From Candidatus Gottesmanbacteria bacterium (GTDB lineage Bacteria > Patescibacteriota > Microgenomatia > UBA10105 > UBA927): 33,289 nucleotides of DNA. Under the pieces are notes generated by a model. The model saw only the letters and a program-made list of their open reading frames with translations, was not told where the DNA came from and ran no database searches. This document shows, in pieces, positions 20,873-28,225 of the stretch. Within the stretch, counting starts at the first letter, position 1; each line of letters opens with the position of its first letter. Location of the stretch: assembly GCA_023245355.1 (NCBI GenBank), contig JAHFKN010000005.1, forward strand, positions 1 through 33,289, written 5' to 3'. The translations under genes and the position numbers were made by a program.

Positions 20873-21091
20873 CTATTTCATTCTGTACGTGATCCTTCCT
20901 TTAGTCGGATCATACGGTGTCATCTCGATTTTTACCCGGTCACCCGGCATGATCCTGATAAAATGCAGACGCATTTTACCGGACAGATGACACAACACAA
21001 TATGGCCGTTTGGTAACTTCACTCGAAACAACGTATTCGGCAAACATTCTGCAACCTCACCGTCAATCTCTATATTTCCCTGATGTGCCAT
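20873..21091 (-). CDS. infA: Translation initiation factor IF-1
   Basis: [68 protein letters not shown]. Confidence 0.97.
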
Positions 21092-21099
21092 AAAATAAC

Positions 21100-21135
21100 A
21101 ACAAACTTCCCTCTTAGTTAGAGAGGGAGCTTGTT
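21100..21135 (-). promoter_or_regulatory. Terminator-like hairpin in the infA leader
   Basis: On minus: AACAAGCTCCCTCT-CTAACTA-AGAGGGAAGTTTGTT then GTTATTTTATG; ~14-bp stem with one bulge and one G:U. Confidence 0.7.
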
Positions 21136-21144
21136 AAGAGTCTT

Positions 21145-21173
21145 ATTGTACCGCATACGGGGTGTTTGGTCAA
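21145..21173 (-). promoter_or_regulatory. infA promoter: TTGACC-N17-TACAAT
   Basis: On minus: TTGACC (21173-21168), exactly 17-bp spacer, TACAAT (21150-21145). Confidence 0.75.
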
Positions 21174-21199
21174 CCGGGGCAATCCTGTCGGTTTTAGCC

Positions 21200-22834
21200 T
21201 CAAAAATACCCATCGTTTATGAGTTTTTTCCGTTTCTCCGTATCGAGCCAGTCGGGAAATTCGCCGCTGACGGAAGCGTACTTGGGAGACGCGCGCAAAA
21301 TATTTTCCAGCGCATCATCCAGTTTTCCGGCGATATCCAGATGAGTACCCAAAACATTATTTTGTTCCAGCGGATCTTTCATGAGATCAAACAACTCCAC
21401 ATAATGCCTGTCTTCTGAATTGTTTTTATACATCTTCCACCTGTTGTTTCTGATCGACACAATTGCGTCACCGCGGTGTTCTCCTATAAGGTACCGCTGC
21501 CCGACCTGCTGCTCCCCCCTGCCTTCCAGCACCGGCACGGCACTCTGCCCTTCCAGCGGAGCAGTCGGCCGGATACCCACAAGATTGAGCAGCGTCGGAT
21601 AAATATCAATCGCCTGAATCAACTCATGAAACACGCCGTTCTGCACTCTCGGGACCGCCATGATAAACGGGGCGTGTACCGCAGTATTATAGATATTCCA
21701 TGCGTGTTCAAATTCTCCGTGTTCCATAATTTCTTCCCCGTTATCAGAAAGGATTATGACGATGGTTTTCCGTTTCACTTCGGGCAGACTGACAAAATCC
21801 AACAATGCTTTCATATCGGCGTCCACCTGATACAACCGTTCGTCGTACAGGCTTTTTATGTAGGTAACCATCTCAGGGTCACCTTTGTCCACTAAGGCCC
21901 AGTACCAGCTGATATGCAGATAATACTGTTCATAGAGCGGCAACGTCCAAAACAATTCTTCCGCCTGTTTAAGATCTCCGTTTGCGACAAACGTCCCCAA
22001 CTGAGACACGATACGGCTGTTGCGCCCGGAACTTTCCGCGGTATCGCTTCCTATAAGACGCTGTTGGAATTGCGTAATCACATACCGGTAAAACGGAATC
22101 GTACTTACGTGAAATTCATCCTGTGTTACCGGAATAAACGGAAACATGCGCGTATTCGTAAATTTCCATGGTCCCTTTCCCGGCAAATACGGCGCATGCG
22201 GAGCGTAGGTATGCAAAAACATAAATGTCGGTTTATCACCCCGGAATAACGGCAATAGCTCCTTGTATTTTGCCGGCCAGTCCGGCAACGTACCGTCTAT
22301 GTGATGAAACTCGGTAAATCCGCGTTCCAACCCCTTATCAAGCGGCAGATTAATATCGTCAGTAATCCCCGCCCAAACGGCGCGGTATCCGTTGTTTTTC
22401 AGCACGTTTGTAAACGTCGGGATATCAGGATTTAACGAATCCTTCAGCGCCTCAATGACATGGTGCGTACTCGGATATAATCCGGTAAAAATCGACATAT
22501 GACTGTCGAGCGTAAACGATGTCTGGGTAAAAAAACGGGAAAACAGAATGTTTTTTTTGGCAAACGCACACAAGTTAGGCGTCGTATCACGGCTATACCC
22601 GTAACAGGGCATTTCATCCGCACGCATCGTATCCAGATTTACAAGAATGATATTACAGTCCGGACACTTGGGCAGACCGGGAACGGCAAATGGCAGTCTG
22701 TATATGATTTCATTGCGTGCTCTCCGGGCTATTCCCGGCGCCCACACCATCACGGCGATGACACCGGCAATTCCCACCATGAATACGGCCATACGCGTAT
22801 GGTTTATGAAAAAATTCAATACGGTTGACCTCAT
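21200..22834 (-). CDS. Membrane-anchored sulfatase-fold (alkaline phosphatase superfamily) hydrolase/transferase
   Basis: N-terminal TM; CPDCNIILVNLDTMRADEMPCYGY; TSFTLDSHMSIFTGLYPSTHHV; ILSDNGEEIMEHGEFEHAWNIYNTAVHAPFI. Confidence 0.9.
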   Translation of the reverse strand: MRSTVLNFFINHTRMAVFMVGIAGVIAVMVWAPGIARRARNEIIYRLPFAVPGLPKCPDCNIILVNLDTMRADEMPCYGYSRDTTPNLCAFAKKNILFSRFFTQTSFTLDSHMSIFTGLYPSTHHVIEALKDSLNPDIPTFTNVLKNNGYRAVWAGITDDINLPLDKGLERGFTEFHHIDGTLPDWPAKYKELLPLFRGDKPTFMFLHTYAPHAPYLPGKGPWKFTNTRMFPFIPVTQDEFHVSTIPFYRYVITQFQQRLIGSDTAESSGRNSRIVSQLGTFVANGDLKQAEELFWTLPLYEQYYLHISWYWALVDKGDPEMVTYIKSLYDERLYQVDADMKALLDFVSLPEVKRKTIVIILSDNGEEIMEHGEFEHAWNIYNTAVHAPFIMAVPRVQNGVFHELIQAIDIYPTLLNLVGIRPTAPLEGQSAVPVLEGRGEQQVGQRYLIGEHRGDAIVSIRNNRWKMYKNNSEDRHYVELFDLMKDPLEQNNVLGTHLDIAGKLDDALENILRASPKYASVSGEFPDWLDTEKRKKLINDGYF

Positions 22835-22836
22835 GA

Positions 22837-24216
22837 TTATTTTCCGGAACTTTTCGTCGGCTGCAGGGATAAGCCATGAATATATAAGGCATCAATGAGC
22901 TCTGACGCTTTCGTACTGCCGCCGGAAAACAGATCTTCCGTCTCTTTGGGATCCTTATTGATGTTGTACAGTTGTTTCATCTGCGATTCTTCATCCATGA
23001 TGAGTTTCCACTGATCATACGTCCGCAGGGCCTTTTGAAATGTTGCATACCGGTACGATGTTTCGGCAAACACGTTCAGCCGGAGATCTTTCCCCGTCAG
23101 CGCGGGCACAAGCGTGGTACCCCGAAGCTGCATACTGAATTGCGGATCAGGGGTTTTTCCGATAAGGGAAAAAATGGTCGGAATAATATCTATAGAGCGG
23201 ACCTGCGTAGATATTTTTTTGTTCCCCGGCGTTCCCGGGACAACCAGTATGAGCGGAATATGAAGAACCTCGTCAAATAACGTCATACCATGATCAATCC
23301 TTCCATGCTCATAAAACTCGTCCCCGTGGTTGGATGTAAATATGACGATAGTTTTTTCTGACAGCTGTAACGATTCGATTTCACTGATAATTTGCCGTAC
23401 GGACGTATCTAACCGTGCTGCTTTTTCATCATAAATGCTGCGCAAAAACGAAACGTCGTCCCCCGTCAGGAAAATTTTTCCGTTTTTTACCCCTTCCTCA
23501 CGCAGCGATTTTTGTTCCTCCGCCGAACCGGTCAGTTTTCCCGCATAGGAAGCACTCACATACCGACGGTCAAGTCCGCCCTGAGGGATATATTGTCCGT
23601 GGACGTCAAATCCGTGGATGAACAAAAACATTTTTTCGTTCCTGTGTTTCCGGATAAATTCCGTCGCTTTCGGAAGCACCGAAAGCAACCCGTCAAACGC
23701 ATCACCGCTTACATACTCGTCAAATCCTTTATCAAAACCGTACGATGCGGAAAGCGCAGCTCCTCCTGCAAAACCGCCGGTAACGTATCCCATCAATTTA
23801 AGATTTTCTGCAAGCGTCGTAAGAGCCGGCGCCGTTTCGGATAATCGTGCAGGGATGAATTCTTTTTTCGGATCATCCGGAATCAATTCCTTGTTCAGGA
23901 TGCCGTGTGTTGAAGGGTATGTCCCGGTCATGAGGCTCATGGCGGCGGGCAATGTCCACGGGGCTACGGAAAACGCCCTGGTAAATACGTATCCTTTTTT
24001 GGCTAATGCATCGAGTGTCGGTGTAGTATTTCTGGGATTCCCATATACGGAGAGCGCATCTGCACGGAGCGGATCTATAACGACTAAAAGAATATTACAG
24101 TCTTTGCATTGACCCTCAATACCCGACCTCCGGACAAATACCTGCCGTATCACCAATCCTGCAGCAGCCAACATTGCTATGAACATGATTAGCTTCACCA
24201 CGTTCCATCTGTTCAT
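22837..24216 (-). CDS. Membrane-anchored sulfatase-fold (alkaline phosphatase superfamily) hydrolase/transferase
   Basis: N-terminal TM; QCKDCNILLVVIDPLRADALSVYGN; APWTLPAAMSLMTGTYPSTHGI; FTSNHGDEFYEHGRIDHGMTLFDEVLHIPLI. ATG at 24216 preferred over TTG 24225. Confidence 0.88.
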   Translation of the reverse strand: MNRWNVVKLIMFIAMLAAAGLVIRQVFVRRSGIEGQCKDCNILLVVIDPLRADALSVYGNPRNTTPTLDALAKKGYVFTRAFSVAPWTLPAAMSLMTGTYPSTHGILNKELIPDDPKKEFIPARLSETAPALTTLAENLKLMGYVTGGFAGGAALSASYGFDKGFDEYVSGDAFDGLLSVLPKATEFIRKHRNEKMFLFIHGFDVHGQYIPQGGLDRRYVSASYAGKLTGSAEEQKSLREEGVKNGKIFLTGDDVSFLRSIYDEKAARLDTSVRQIISEIESLQLSEKTIVIFTSNHGDEFYEHGRIDHGMTLFDEVLHIPLILVVPGTPGNKKISTQVRSIDIIPTIFSLIGKTPDPQFSMQLRGTTLVPALTGKDLRLNVFAETSYRYATFQKALRTYDQWKLIMDEESQMKQLYNINKDPKETEDLFSGGSTKASELIDALYIHGLSLQPTKSSGK

Positions 24217-24226
24217 AATAATCAAC

Positions 24227-24232
24227 TATAAT
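24227..24232 (+). promoter_or_regulatory. Candidate -10 (TATAAT) for the embedded + strand gene
   Basis: TATAAT 15 nt before ATG 24247 in a 30-bp divergent gap; no convincing -35. Confidence 0.5.
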
Positions 24233-24246
24233 ACAAGTATACGGCT

Positions 24247-24849
24247 ATGACCAGCGCACGATACACGGCATTTCTTTTCCTGACGGTTCTTTCCGGTATA
24301 CTGATACACACATGGTGGACGAAACGCCCGGTGTCACTGTGCAATACCCTCTCCTGCATTCAGATGGATGATTCATCACGTTTCCGCAACAAAGATACCT
24401 ACAGCGACACGCAGAGCACCTACCGGGCATTATTTGAACACAACGGGCGGTTTCTGCGCATAGATGCGCAGCGCACAGCCCAAAATTCAGCCGGACAGGA
24501 GCGTGACGCGGCAGTAACAAAAATAAAAGCCATGTTTGAAAAAGCACCGGCCCCTTACCCCGGGGAGATATCCGACGCGATCGTCTGCGATCCTGCATTT
24601 GTCCCGACATATGAGGAAATAGGACCCGATAAAGCACGCATTTCCCTGTTTGTCGGATATCTCAACAACAGAATGACGTTCGGTTCCTGTTCGCAAAGTC
24701 AGGCGGTCTACCGCGGGGCACTCGCTCTCATGCATTGTGCGGAACAATCCCTGCTACTGAGAGTAGAGCTGATTGCCAAAACCGATGACTTCGTGATCCA
24801 CGAAAAAGAACTGATGAATCAAATCCGTTCGCTTCGGTGTGGGAAGTAG
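24247..24849 (+). CDS. Hypothetical membrane-anchored exported protein with six cysteines
   Basis: N-terminal TM (YTAFLFLTVLSGILIHTWW), no recognised domain, Cys in SLCNTLSC, IVCDP, GSCSQ, MHCAE, LRCGK. Intact 200-codon ORF, stop 2 nt from the convergent neighbour. Confidence 0.7.
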   Translation: MTSARYTAFLFLTVLSGILIHTWWTKRPVSLCNTLSCIQMDDSSRFRNKDTYSDTQSTYRALFEHNGRFLRIDAQRTAQNSAGQERDAAVTKIKAMFEKAPAPYPGEISDAIVCDPAFVPTYEEIGPDKARISLFVGYLNNRMTFGSCSQSQAVYRGALALMHCAEQSLLLRVELIAKTDDFVIHEKELMNQIRSLRCGK

Positions 24850-24851
24850 AA

Positions 24852-26849
24852 TCAGCGGGTGAATATCTCGAGCGGTTTACCCTGCACGAATGACGGGATA
24901 GCAACTCCCAACGCGTTCATAATTGTCGGATATTGCTGAATCAGGGAGAACGGCTTGTCGCCCAAAAAGTTATTCTTCTTCACGCCGGGACCGGCCATAA
25001 TAAACGGTGTCCACATACCCGGCACATCAGCGGCTTTGATCGCCTGTTTGTATCCGGAAACCAAAGGCGCCGAAAACGGAACCAGATCAGCAGACATTTC
25101 TTCGTTCCATCCGTACCCCGGCGTATTTGCAATTACCAGGTCTCCGATGCGGTCGGGATCAAGCTGCATATAGGACTTTGCATTTTCCCATTTCACGATC
25201 TCTACGACGGGGGCTATCCCATTCTCATCTTTGAGATCTTTGAGTGTACTCATAACTTCATCCCGCAACGCCTCATATGCCGGTCCGCTTGCCCGGGTAT
25301 ATTTTCCGGCCAAGCCTGCTGGATTGATGTACACGTGCGCCATTTTAAGATACATGACTTTTGACTGTTTCCAGTCGATAATCGGCTCACCGGTTTTCGG
25401 ATCAATCGTGAATTTAAGCCATCCTTTTTTAGCAAACACGTTGTTTAAATTCACGCTCCGGTCAAGCGGAACCGCTCCGTGATCGCTACTTAAGACGATA
25501 TAGGTATTTTTGTCGGCCACTTTGAGTATTTCCCCGATCATCCCGTCAAGCTTTTTGTACATATCCTGCACTTCATTCCACAACTGATCCCGCACTTTCG
25601 GATCCATGGAGGCGTAGGAAGCACTCTTGGGATCCACCCCGCTCATCCACCATTTGCTGGTCAGCATCTGATTGGGCGTGTAGATATCGTGAATGACGAC
25701 GTCAGGAGAAAAATCATTTACCATGGCGCCGACGGCTTTCGTATGCCAGTCAAACGAAAGTTTGGCTTCGTCCATGAATGCTTTTTTGTCCTCGGGGTAA
25801 TAGATAAGCTGCGCGGGGAAATTATCCGCAAAATCCGTCATGGGTCCCACTGACTTTTCGAGTGCGTCAGCGGCAGCTTCAGGGAACGTAATATTGCGGT
25901 TTAATGCGTCGTAAAGTAACCTGATGCGGAAAAATCCGTTATCGCCGAGTTTTATGACTCCCGCTTTCACATGCGAATCTACATTGACGGACTTGTCTGC
26001 TGTTTTCCAAACCAATGTGATCGGCTGCCAATCGGTCCAATCCCCGACTGCGATATCACCGAGCTTCGTTTTTTTATCCAGCGAAAACATCACGCGGTCA
26101 GGTGACTTTTTCTCATCATTGGTGCTGTCATATATATAGGCGTACACCGGCGTTCCCCATCCGACGAGTGTTACCTCCGAAGGATCGGAAAAACTCATCG
26201 GAGGCGCTTCCCATCCTTTGGGGGTACCGCCGTCCAGATATTGGGTAAGCTGCGGTCCGAAATAAAACAGTCTGGTTCCCCTGCCCTGCTTTTTCCGCTG
26301 TGTCAGGTCACCGAGCGTTTCGAAATTCAGCGATGCGAAATCCGCTCCCCATCCGCCCCAGCGGCCACGGATAACTATCCCCTTCTGCACTTCCGGCGGC
26401 GTACTGCCGGGAACGGATAAAATTGCTACTTTCATGCCTGCCTCTTCCAGCGTTTTCCAGATAGGCGCTACTTTTTTGGCGGTAGAGCGGAAACCCGGCA
26501 CTGCAACGGCATCCAGAGGCTTGCCGACTTCACGCATGGGCCCGTCATCTACACCATGAACTTCCGGCATGGAACCGGTAAGTAACGTCGCAAAATTTGT
26601 CGGCGTGTGGCTCGGAAAATTCGGATATGAATATCCGTATGATCCGCGCTCCATCAGTTTTTTGATATTCGGGAGTTTCCCCTCGTTTGCCCATGCATAA
26701 ATATTAAAAAGACCGGGCTCAGCACGCATACCGTCGGGGATAAACCAGTAGAGTTTTACCGCGTGTTTCGGAGGGGAATTCCGTTTTTGTATAAATATAA
26801 ATCCACCTAACATCAACAGGGCAAGAACAAGTATGTATGTTCTCTTCAT
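24852..26849 (-). CDS. Type I phosphodiesterase / nucleotide pyrophosphatase-like (alkaline phosphatase superfamily), membrane-anchored
   Basis: N-terminal TM; LYWFIPDGMRAEP; FPSHTPTNFATLLTGSMPEVHGV; YIVLSSDHGAVPLDRSVNLNNVF. Confidence 0.88.
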   Translation of the reverse strand: MKRTYILVLALLMLGGFIFIQKRNSPPKHAVKLYWFIPDGMRAEPGLFNIYAWANEGKLPNIKKLMERGSYGYSYPNFPSHTPTNFATLLTGSMPEVHGVDDGPMREVGKPLDAVAVPGFRSTAKKVAPIWKTLEEAGMKVAILSVPGSTPPEVQKGIVIRGRWGGWGADFASLNFETLGDLTQRKKQGRGTRLFYFGPQLTQYLDGGTPKGWEAPPMSFSDPSEVTLVGWGTPVYAYIYDSTNDEKKSPDRVMFSLDKKTKLGDIAVGDWTDWQPITLVWKTADKSVNVDSHVKAGVIKLGDNGFFRIRLLYDALNRNITFPEAAADALEKSVGPMTDFADNFPAQLIYYPEDKKAFMDEAKLSFDWHTKAVGAMVNDFSPDVVIHDIYTPNQMLTSKWWMSGVDPKSASYASMDPKVRDQLWNEVQDMYKKLDGMIGEILKVADKNTYIVLSSDHGAVPLDRSVNLNNVFAKKGWLKFTIDPKTGEPIIDWKQSKVMYLKMAHVYINPAGLAGKYTRASGPAYEALRDEVMSTLKDLKDENGIAPVVEIVKWENAKSYMQLDPDRIGDLVIANTPGYGWNEEMSADLVPFSAPLVSGYKQAIKAADVPGMWTPFIMAGPGVKKNNFLGDKPFSLIQQYPTIMNALGVAIPSFVQGKPLEIFTR

Positions 26850-26891: not shown

Positions 26892-27677
26892 TTATCCCTT
26901 TGCAGAAAGAAGCGGGGTAAGAATAACCGGGTCGCCGTCAGTAATTGCTACCGTATGTTCAAATACTGAAGACAGTGAATGATCCCGGGTCGCAATCGAC
27001 CATCCGTCATCAAGATAAATCATCGCGGGATTCCCCATGGTATAGATTACCTCTATGGCTATCGTCATGCCGGTTGTAAGGGGCGGTGTTTTTTCTATTG
27101 AACCCTTCAGATACCCCGGAATCTGTGGGGGTTCATGCAGTGTCGTACCGACTCCGTGCCCGACTAATGATTTGGCTATCCCGTACCCCGATCCTTCGAC
27201 AATATCCTGGATTACTTTTGAGATATGTCCGACTCTGTTACCGTTTCTTGCCTGCTTCGTTGCTTCCGTCAATGCATCGAGCCCAACCTGCAAAAATTTC
27301 TCCACACGTTTTGGCGTCTCATACGTGCTGCCCGGCGCCCGGATAACTTTTGTCCATGCGGTATCCGTATGATACGTCTTATGGATAAGCCCGATATCGA
27401 TCGTAAGAACATCTCCTTCTTTTACTCTGTATTCCGACGGGATACCGTGTACAATCACGTCGTTAATACAAAGACATGTTGCCCATTTATAATCGGCGAC
27501 CGTCGAAAACGACGGCTTCATGCCGGCCTCTTTTATGCGCTTTTGTGCACGCGCTTCTATCTCCAAAAGCGACACACCGGGAATTGCCATATCAACAAGT
27601 TCTTTCAGTACCAAAGAGAGGACAGCTCCTCCCTCTTTCATCGCGGATATTTTCTGTTCCGTTTGTTTGTCACTCAT
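26892..27677 (-). CDS. map: Methionine aminopeptidase type I
   Basis: VLTIDIGLIHKTYHTDTAWTKV, VGHGVGTTLHEPPQIPGY, GMTIAIEVIYTMG, SIATRDHSLSSVFEHTVAIT. Confidence 0.96.
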   Translation of the reverse strand: MSDKQTEQKISAMKEGGAVLSLVLKELVDMAIPGVSLLEIEARAQKRIKEAGMKPSFSTVADYKWATCLCINDVIVHGIPSEYRVKEGDVLTIDIGLIHKTYHTDTAWTKVIRAPGSTYETPKRVEKFLQVGLDALTEATKQARNGNRVGHISKVIQDIVEGSGYGIAKSLVGHGVGTTLHEPPQIPGYLKGSIEKTPPLTTGMTIAIEVIYTMGNPAMIYLDDGWSIATRDHSLSSVFEHTVAITDGDPVILTPLLSAKG

Positions 27678-28225
27678 ATGAGGGTCTGCAAAAACGTCTG
27701 TAGTTCCGAGTCCAGGTCCTGCGGCGTTCCTTCATTTTTTATCACGTAGTCTGCGATTGCAATCGGGCCTCCGGAATTAAGCTTTTCTATTTCTGCACGG
27801 TCCCGTTCTTTTGATTCCTTTTCCGTCAGCGGACGGACTGTCCGGCTGGCAAGACGCGCGTACCGCGTAGCAGGAGATGCATACACGGAAAGTACACGCA
27901 GCCCCGGAAATTTTGCTTTGAGATATACGTATTCTTCCCAGCTGCGCATGCCGTCGAGAGCGATTTTATGCGTAGACACTTCTGCTTCCCGTATTCTCGG
28001 CTCGATCTTAATAGCCATTGCGGCCATACCGAGTTCTTTCCTGATGTTTTCCCGGTATTGCCGCTCGTTGGTTTCGTTCAACTCCAATCCCAATTCCTTG
28101 AGTCCGATATCCGTCTGGTCCCCGAATCGGAGGACGGTAAATCCGTGTTCACGGAAAAAATCAGAGGCTTTCGTTTTGCCGGAACCGGGAAGACCGACGA
28201 TAGCTATATATACCGTGTTGTTCAC
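27674..28225 (-). CDS. P-loop kinase, UPF0200 / archaeal dephospho-CoA-kinase-like
   Basis: IAIVGLPGSGKTKASDFFREHGFTVLRFGD, KELGMAAMAIKIEPRIRE, KIALDGMRSWEEYVYLK, VLSVYASPATRYARLASR, IAIADYVIKNEGT; resembles the archaeal UPF0200 pattern from memory. Confidence 0.75.
   Translation of the reverse strand: MNNTVYIAIVGLPGSGKTKASDFFREHGFTVLRFGDQTDIGLKELGLELNETNERQYRENIRKELGMAAMAIKIEPRIREAEVSTHKIALDGMRSWEEYVYLKAKFPGLRVLSVYASPATRYARLASRTVRPLTEKESKERDRAEIEKLNSGGPIAIADYVIKNEGTPQDLDSELQTFLQTLI

Follow-up and report, generated by a model that had tools for sequence, protein, structure and literature searches.

Members of the alkaline phosphatase superfamily that carry threonine at the nucleophile position perform phosphate-ester chemistry. 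The closest described enzymes to those considered here are EptA/MCR, LtaS and YejM, in which an exported domain accompanies a multi-transmembrane (multi-TM) domain; the formylglycine sulfatases (PF00884, SGSH_C), which carry CxPxR or SxPxR at the active site; and the NPP/ENPP phosphodiesterases (PF01663). The small, membrane-associated PsbP, Mog1, DcrB, LpqN and EagT6 proteins provide the closest structural comparison for a fourth component. We analysed a window of 33,289 nt (all positions are those of the whole window), which is the start of a contig in a Candidatus Gottesmanbacteria genome of 1.275 Mb and 95% completeness. Four genes, sulfA, sulfB, orfP and pde, form a cassette at positions 21200-26849, between map and infA of the ribosomal superoperon, among the most conserved of bacterial gene orders. 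The cassette is a conserved, linked and sometimes fused set of genes present in bacteria and archaea, and its insertion at this site is lineage-specific, settled and of ordinary explanation. The module, whose function would lie in the cell envelope, is the more interesting part.

An earlier note, made from the sequence of the window, had described three membrane-anchored enzymes of the alkaline phosphatase superfamily and one exported protein encoded on the opposite strand. Open reading frame (ORF) and Pfam checks of the map-infA interval returned the same gene order and coordinates, and assigned sulfA and sulfB to PF00884 and pde to PF01663. Membrane anchoring was likewise upheld by hydropathy, with an N-terminal hydrophobic segment in all four proteins. 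The best 19-residue Kyte-Doolittle means were 2.25, 2.29 and 1.88 for the three enzymes, whose maxima lay at the N-terminus, where a single TM segment was read. The mean for orfP was weaker (1.46), and its residues 3-25 were modelled as a helix.

The pde gene (24852-26849, minus strand, 665 aa) matched PF01663 at 1e-30 (107.6 bits; cut-off 23). Its AlphaFold2 (AF2) model was confident (pLDDT 93) and had the NPP fold, the best Foldseek matches being ENPP1 (E 5e-16), autotaxin and the Xac NPP. The order of motifs was also shared with this family. The predicted nucleophile T82 and its partner N85 (TxxN) were nearly invariant in the family alignment and aligned to TFPN of ENPP1, the SDHG motif was likewise aligned, and the predicted metal ligands D39, D456 and H457 were present. 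Identity to NPP/ENPP proteins is only about 14%, and the C-terminal region may differ, as the second-zinc DxxxH and the last His were not recognised there. The pde family alignment had no conserved DxxxH, a GYKQ motif being conserved there instead with no His near it, and the alignment of this region to PafA was weak. Overall, pde is predicted to be a membrane-anchored type I phosphodiesterase or NPP-like enzyme.

The sulfA gene (21200-22834, minus strand, 544 aa) and the sulfB gene (22837-24225, minus strand, 462 aa, starting at TTG 24225 or ATG 24216) matched PF00884 at 9e-32 and 3e-36 (111 and 126 bits; cut-off 25). In overall fold and sequence both products resemble formylglycine sulfatases, but neither has the Cys or Ser of C/S-x-P-x-R. 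When aligned to solved sulfatases, a Thr stood opposite the sulfatase Cys, and the family alignment had Thr at this nucleophile position in 75 of the 76 sulfatase-fold homologues and Ser in one. The plain sulfatase label was weakened by this residue. In sulfA the position reads FTLDSH and the metal motif SDNGE is intact, whereas sulfB has WTLPAA and SNHG, with Asn for the metal-site Asp, which several sulfB relatives replace by Ser, His, Gly or Pro. EptA, LtaS and YejM use Thr as their nucleophile (PMC7576196) and share with sulfA and sulfB a membrane-anchored exported domain. However, sulfA and sulfB have one predicted TM segment rather than a multi-TM domain and are closer in sequence to sulfatases than to the EptA or LtaS models. 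The NCBIfam models for EptA, LtaS and YejM matched the cassette sulfatase-fold proteins far below cut-off, and PHROGs returned only unannotated families for them. A CxxCN motif followed the membrane segment in 55 of the 76 proteins, including sulfA, sulfB and nearly all of those from Patescibacteria and DPANN. The presence of Thr throughout, together with the NPP-like pde, supports the phosphodiester-type chemistry that the earlier note had suggested. Three further sulfatase-fold genes, all with Thr and CxxCN, were found in the same genome, on C9 and C10 (L001, L002 and L005).

No Pfam, NCBIfam or PHROGs family was found for orfP (24247-24849, plus strand, 200 aa) among the members tried (Pfam above cut-off in 0/9), and a PDB sequence search gave no match. 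The family shares the signature PYPGxIS...C...FKP...G.C. The AF2 model (pLDDT 95) gave nine PDB matches at E<=1e-3 by Foldseek, eight of which were PsbP-type; PsbP proteins ranked best, followed by Mog1, DcrB, EagT6 and LpqN, with an E-value of 8e-5 and modest TM-scores (~0.4-0.58). Like these proteins, orfP is small, membrane-associated and exported or lipoprotein-like, and several members looked like lipoproteins by eye. It differs from PsbP, Mog1, DcrB, LpqN and EagT6 in having no detectable sequence similarity to them, in its PYPG and Cys signature, and in its linkage to phosphodiesterase-like enzymes. The patescibacterial members carry Cx4C after the membrane segment. Differences between genomes were distributed over the first, second and third codon positions as 0.38/0.33/0.63; this pattern, the confidently modelled fold and the occurrence of the domain fused to other exported enzymes show that orfP is genuinely coding on the plus strand. 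A divergent promoter serving both sulfB and orfP was sought, and none was conserved. We predict that orfP is an exported or membrane-anchored accessory protein with a PsbP/Mog1/DcrB/LpqN-like fold. The structural comparisons that the earlier note had proposed thus yielded confident models for pde and orfP, with NPP-like and PsbP/Mog1/LpqN-like matches.

A scan of 84,980 species genomes, with search patterns derived from the pde protein of the window, returned 63 pde loci. These were found in Patescibacteria, Woesearchaeota and other DPANN, Altiarchaeota, Omnitrophota, Elusimicrobiota, Bdellovibrionota, Myxococcota, Nitrospirota and Chloroflexota, among others, and 45 ORFs homologous to orfP were collected. 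Of 61 pde loci, at least 34 had both orfP and a sulfatase-fold gene nearby; this is a minimum, as some orfP genes that tblastn detects were missed by the ORF picker. An independent search of sampled genomes with orfP only showed that the cassette is rare, in 0.5-2.4% of the genomes of the four phyla sampled: 2/380 in the phylum of the window (the window counted), 3/237 in that of L026, 6/279 in that of L023 and 8/331 in that of L049. Two additional weak matches, with no cassette gene nearby, were discounted (G160, in the phylum of the window, and G588, in that of L026). In the three other phyla, all 17 strong orfP matches had pde and/or a sulfatase-fold gene nearby (G709 had pde alone in the stretch taken, and the genome of L023 was judged on a larger locus). 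The co-occurrence of the cassette genes, which had been proposed as a check, was borne out. The first list of pde loci had pointed to ultra-small or predatory lineages as being enriched, but these orfP frequencies, including 8/331 in the phylum of L049 with genomes of 3.9-9.3 Mb, did not support this.

The linkage extended to gene fusions: orfP preceded a fused sulfB domain in L021, L026 and L034, followed a sulfA-like domain in L059 and an arylsulfotransferase-like (ASST) domain in L024, and a sulfatase-fold domain was joined to a following pde domain in L054 and L055 (~1,046 aa). The pde tree mixed the two domains of life with support, one Woesearchaeota row grouping with Daviesbacteria (100/100) and a second one with a row from Nitrospirae (100/98); mis-binned contigs may lie behind individual pairs of this kind. 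Exchange of membrane-associated genes between Patescibacteria and DPANN has been reported (PMC12455944). Viral contigs searched with close patterns gave no match, and carriage on plasmids was not supported, as the only two plasmid matches were weak and both were haloarchaeal phosphatases. No paper on the cassette was found in the open-access literature. It is a rare module of two domains of life, linked and fused, whose signature protein, orfP, matches no family of the libraries searched. A further observation was a locus (L085, in G006) where a second orfP is surrounded by five sulfatase-fold genes, without pde.

The explanation that we prefer, and to which we give an even chance, is that the cassette encodes an extracytoplasmic, membrane-tethered set: a phosphodiesterase resembling NPP, one or two sulfatase-fold enzymes whose nucleophile position is occupied by Thr, and an accessory protein of PsbP/LpqN-like type. 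Acting jointly, these would work on a polymer or lipid of the cell surface through a covalent phospho-Thr step, either cleaving phosphodiester-linked groups or transferring them. As a transferable module, the cassette would have reached its site between map and infA a single time in one Gottesmanbacteria-type genus, either on entering that genus or by moving within it. It would have come to lie immediately upstream of the infA promoter, so that the alpha-operon genes were not cut from their promoter. A more far-reaching proposal, which we advance tentatively, is that pde, orfP and the Thr-type sulfatase-fold enzymes are parts of a hitherto undescribed complex that modifies the envelope, has been transferred between bacteria and archaea and is common to Patescibacteria and DPANN. 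In such a complex orfP would be the signature subunit, and the subunits might be linked by disulfide bonds or metal through Cys pairs close to the outer face of the membrane (the CxxCN of the enzymes and the Cx4C of patescibacterial orfP). The cassette itself offers a handle on surface modification in very small bacteria and archaea, which is little studied.

Several points weigh against the preferred explanation. The second-zinc His of NPP enzymes has no obvious counterpart in the C-terminal part of pde, which leaves its exact chemistry uncertain, and sulfB may be inactive or altered, having lost the metal-binding Asp. Enzyme activity and substrate are predicted from sequence, models and neighbours, and the infA promoter is a candidate proposed from sequence conservation. 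Surface-glycan neighbours were present in several loci only, not in all, and the arylsulfotransferase-like neighbours of orfP in some Omnitrophota and Elusimicrobiota hint at sulfate chemistry.

The best-surviving alternative, although an unlikely one, is nutrient scavenging, in which secreted phosphodiesterases would free phosphate, nucleosides or head groups from the nucleic acids or lipids of the environment or of partner cells. Enzymes of the ENPP type, which pde resembles, cleave phosphodiesters in nucleotides and lipids, and this would suit such a role, as would a phosphate-selective porin-like gene beside pde in L021. However, several other Patescibacteria hold the cassette among genes for glycosyltransferases, WecG, O-antigen ligase, sugar epimerases and ABC transporters, and in a Pfam tally of 108 neighbour proteins glycosyltransferases and O-antigen ligase came first, while uptake families had few matches. 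The earlier note had suggested an envelope-polymer module; the glycosyltransferase, O-antigen-ligase and ABC-transporter neighbours make this plausible, while the role itself is deduced from such context.

Sulfate-ester chemistry, in which the sulfatase-fold proteins would desulfate surface glycans or transfer sulfate on them, appears somewhat less likely again. The best solved relatives by sequence are sulfatases, and an arylsulfotransferase-like gene lay near pde or orfP, or was fused to orfP, at six loci (L024, L028, L031, L058, L066 and L091), from some Omnitrophota, Elusimicrobiota and one Armatimonadota-like record; orfP was not detected in L066. Against this, 75 of 76 homologues have Thr where a sulfatase has the formylglycine Cys or Ser, and phosphate esters are the substrates of superfamily members of the Thr type (PMC7576196).

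That the position of the cassette in the superoperon ties it functionally to translation or to protein export is very improbable. Its placement is strict in six genomes, and G003 has a second pair of orfP and sulfatase-fold genes in a region reading hrcA-grpE-dnaK-dnaJ ... nusA-infB (the flanking gene names in G003 and G006 are from sequence resemblance rather than a family search). However, most relatives are without the cassette, other genera keep it beside dnaA-like or glycan genes (it adjoins dnaA- and dnaN-like genes in G009 and G020), and infA has its own conserved promoter sequence. In G004 the cassette is beside prepilin-like genes. The co-location with translation genes, to which the earlier note had attached some meaning, looks like placement and not function, as relatives carry the cassette beside dnaA-like genes or in surface-glycan clusters; the position at the spc/alpha boundary is a derived trait of one genus.

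The cassette is flanked by map (26892-27677, minus strand; PF00557, 3e-34), at the end of the spc-type unit, and by infA (20873-21091, minus strand; PF01176, 2e-27), the first gene of the alpha-type unit. A promoter sequence, TTGACC-N17-TACAAT (21145-21173, minus strand), was found just downstream of the sulfA stop codon. The pattern TTGACC-N17-TA(C/T/G)AAT was present 81 to 139 nt upstream of the infA start codon at 9/9 infA sites (six occupied and three empty, eight of them aligned), compared with a rough expectation of ~0.01 per 200 random bases for so specific a pattern. At the five occupied sites with sulfA, it followed closely after the sulfA stop codon. The cassette thus ends just ahead of the conserved infA promoter and sits at the spc/alpha transcription boundary; its conservation suggests that this promoter is active. 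Between promoter and start codon (leader 21089-21180), an attenuator- or terminator-like hairpin, CCCTCTCTAACTAAGAGGG (21108-21128, minus strand), was identical in six genomes, in which 4-fold sites were about two-thirds diverged (three pairs measured). Other genomes have different hairpins at this position, still pairing. The hairpin belongs to no Rfam family, and an Rfam scan of 17-31 kb of the window gave no match. Control of the alpha operon, as a leader or attenuator, is a possible role for it.

The map-infA interval was compared, as the earlier note had proposed, across 59 genomes (that of the window and relatives). In 46 of them map adjoined infA on one contig with a gap under ~0.9 kb, and in six, all of the genus of the window and including its own genome, 4.2-7.5 kb separated the two genes; in the remainder, map and infA were on different contigs, far apart or missing. 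A seventh genome of the genus (G004) had an intact junction and the cassette on another contig. The gene order and strands of the window recurred between map and infA in L006, L007, L008 and L022, with an additional sulfA copy in L008, and the block of L018 was without sulfA. A maximum-likelihood tree of pde placed the six members from the ribosomal locus in one clade (support 100/99), consistent with a single insertion. Both pde and orfP were present in 7/7 genomes of the genus and 2/17 other genomes of the family, 35 more distant relatives scanned gave no full-length match, and extra pde matches in G030 were weak and partial. The arrangement is therefore routine within the genus only, 45 other relatives having an intact junction. 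An assembly artefact or chimeric contig, raised in the earlier note as a possible refutation, is ruled out for practical purposes, as the same block with diverged sequence was present in five other independent assemblies. The locus is a clear example of a foreign-type block that settled once in the superoperon, with the downstream operon kept with its promoter and empty sites available for comparison.

Cassette GC (~0.45-0.51) was like that of the flanks, and composition gave no sign of recent arrival. Between L006 and the window, pde was 87% identical and orfP, sulfB and sulfA 48-55% identical, whereas 4-fold sites were equally diverged across the cassette genes (~0.65-0.71). The pde gene is constrained as tightly as rpoA or secY, while its partners evolve fast.

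Two observations concern the neighbouring genes. A P-loop kinase-like gene (27674-28225, minus strand; AAA_18), absent from the earlier note, lies between adk and map, has weak similarity to PRK08356 and CMP kinase, and is retained in several relatives. The adk genes of L008, L018, L079, L087 and L088 were only ~30-33% identical to that of the window, whereas the flanking genes were far more alike, which suggests a replacement of adk within the operon.

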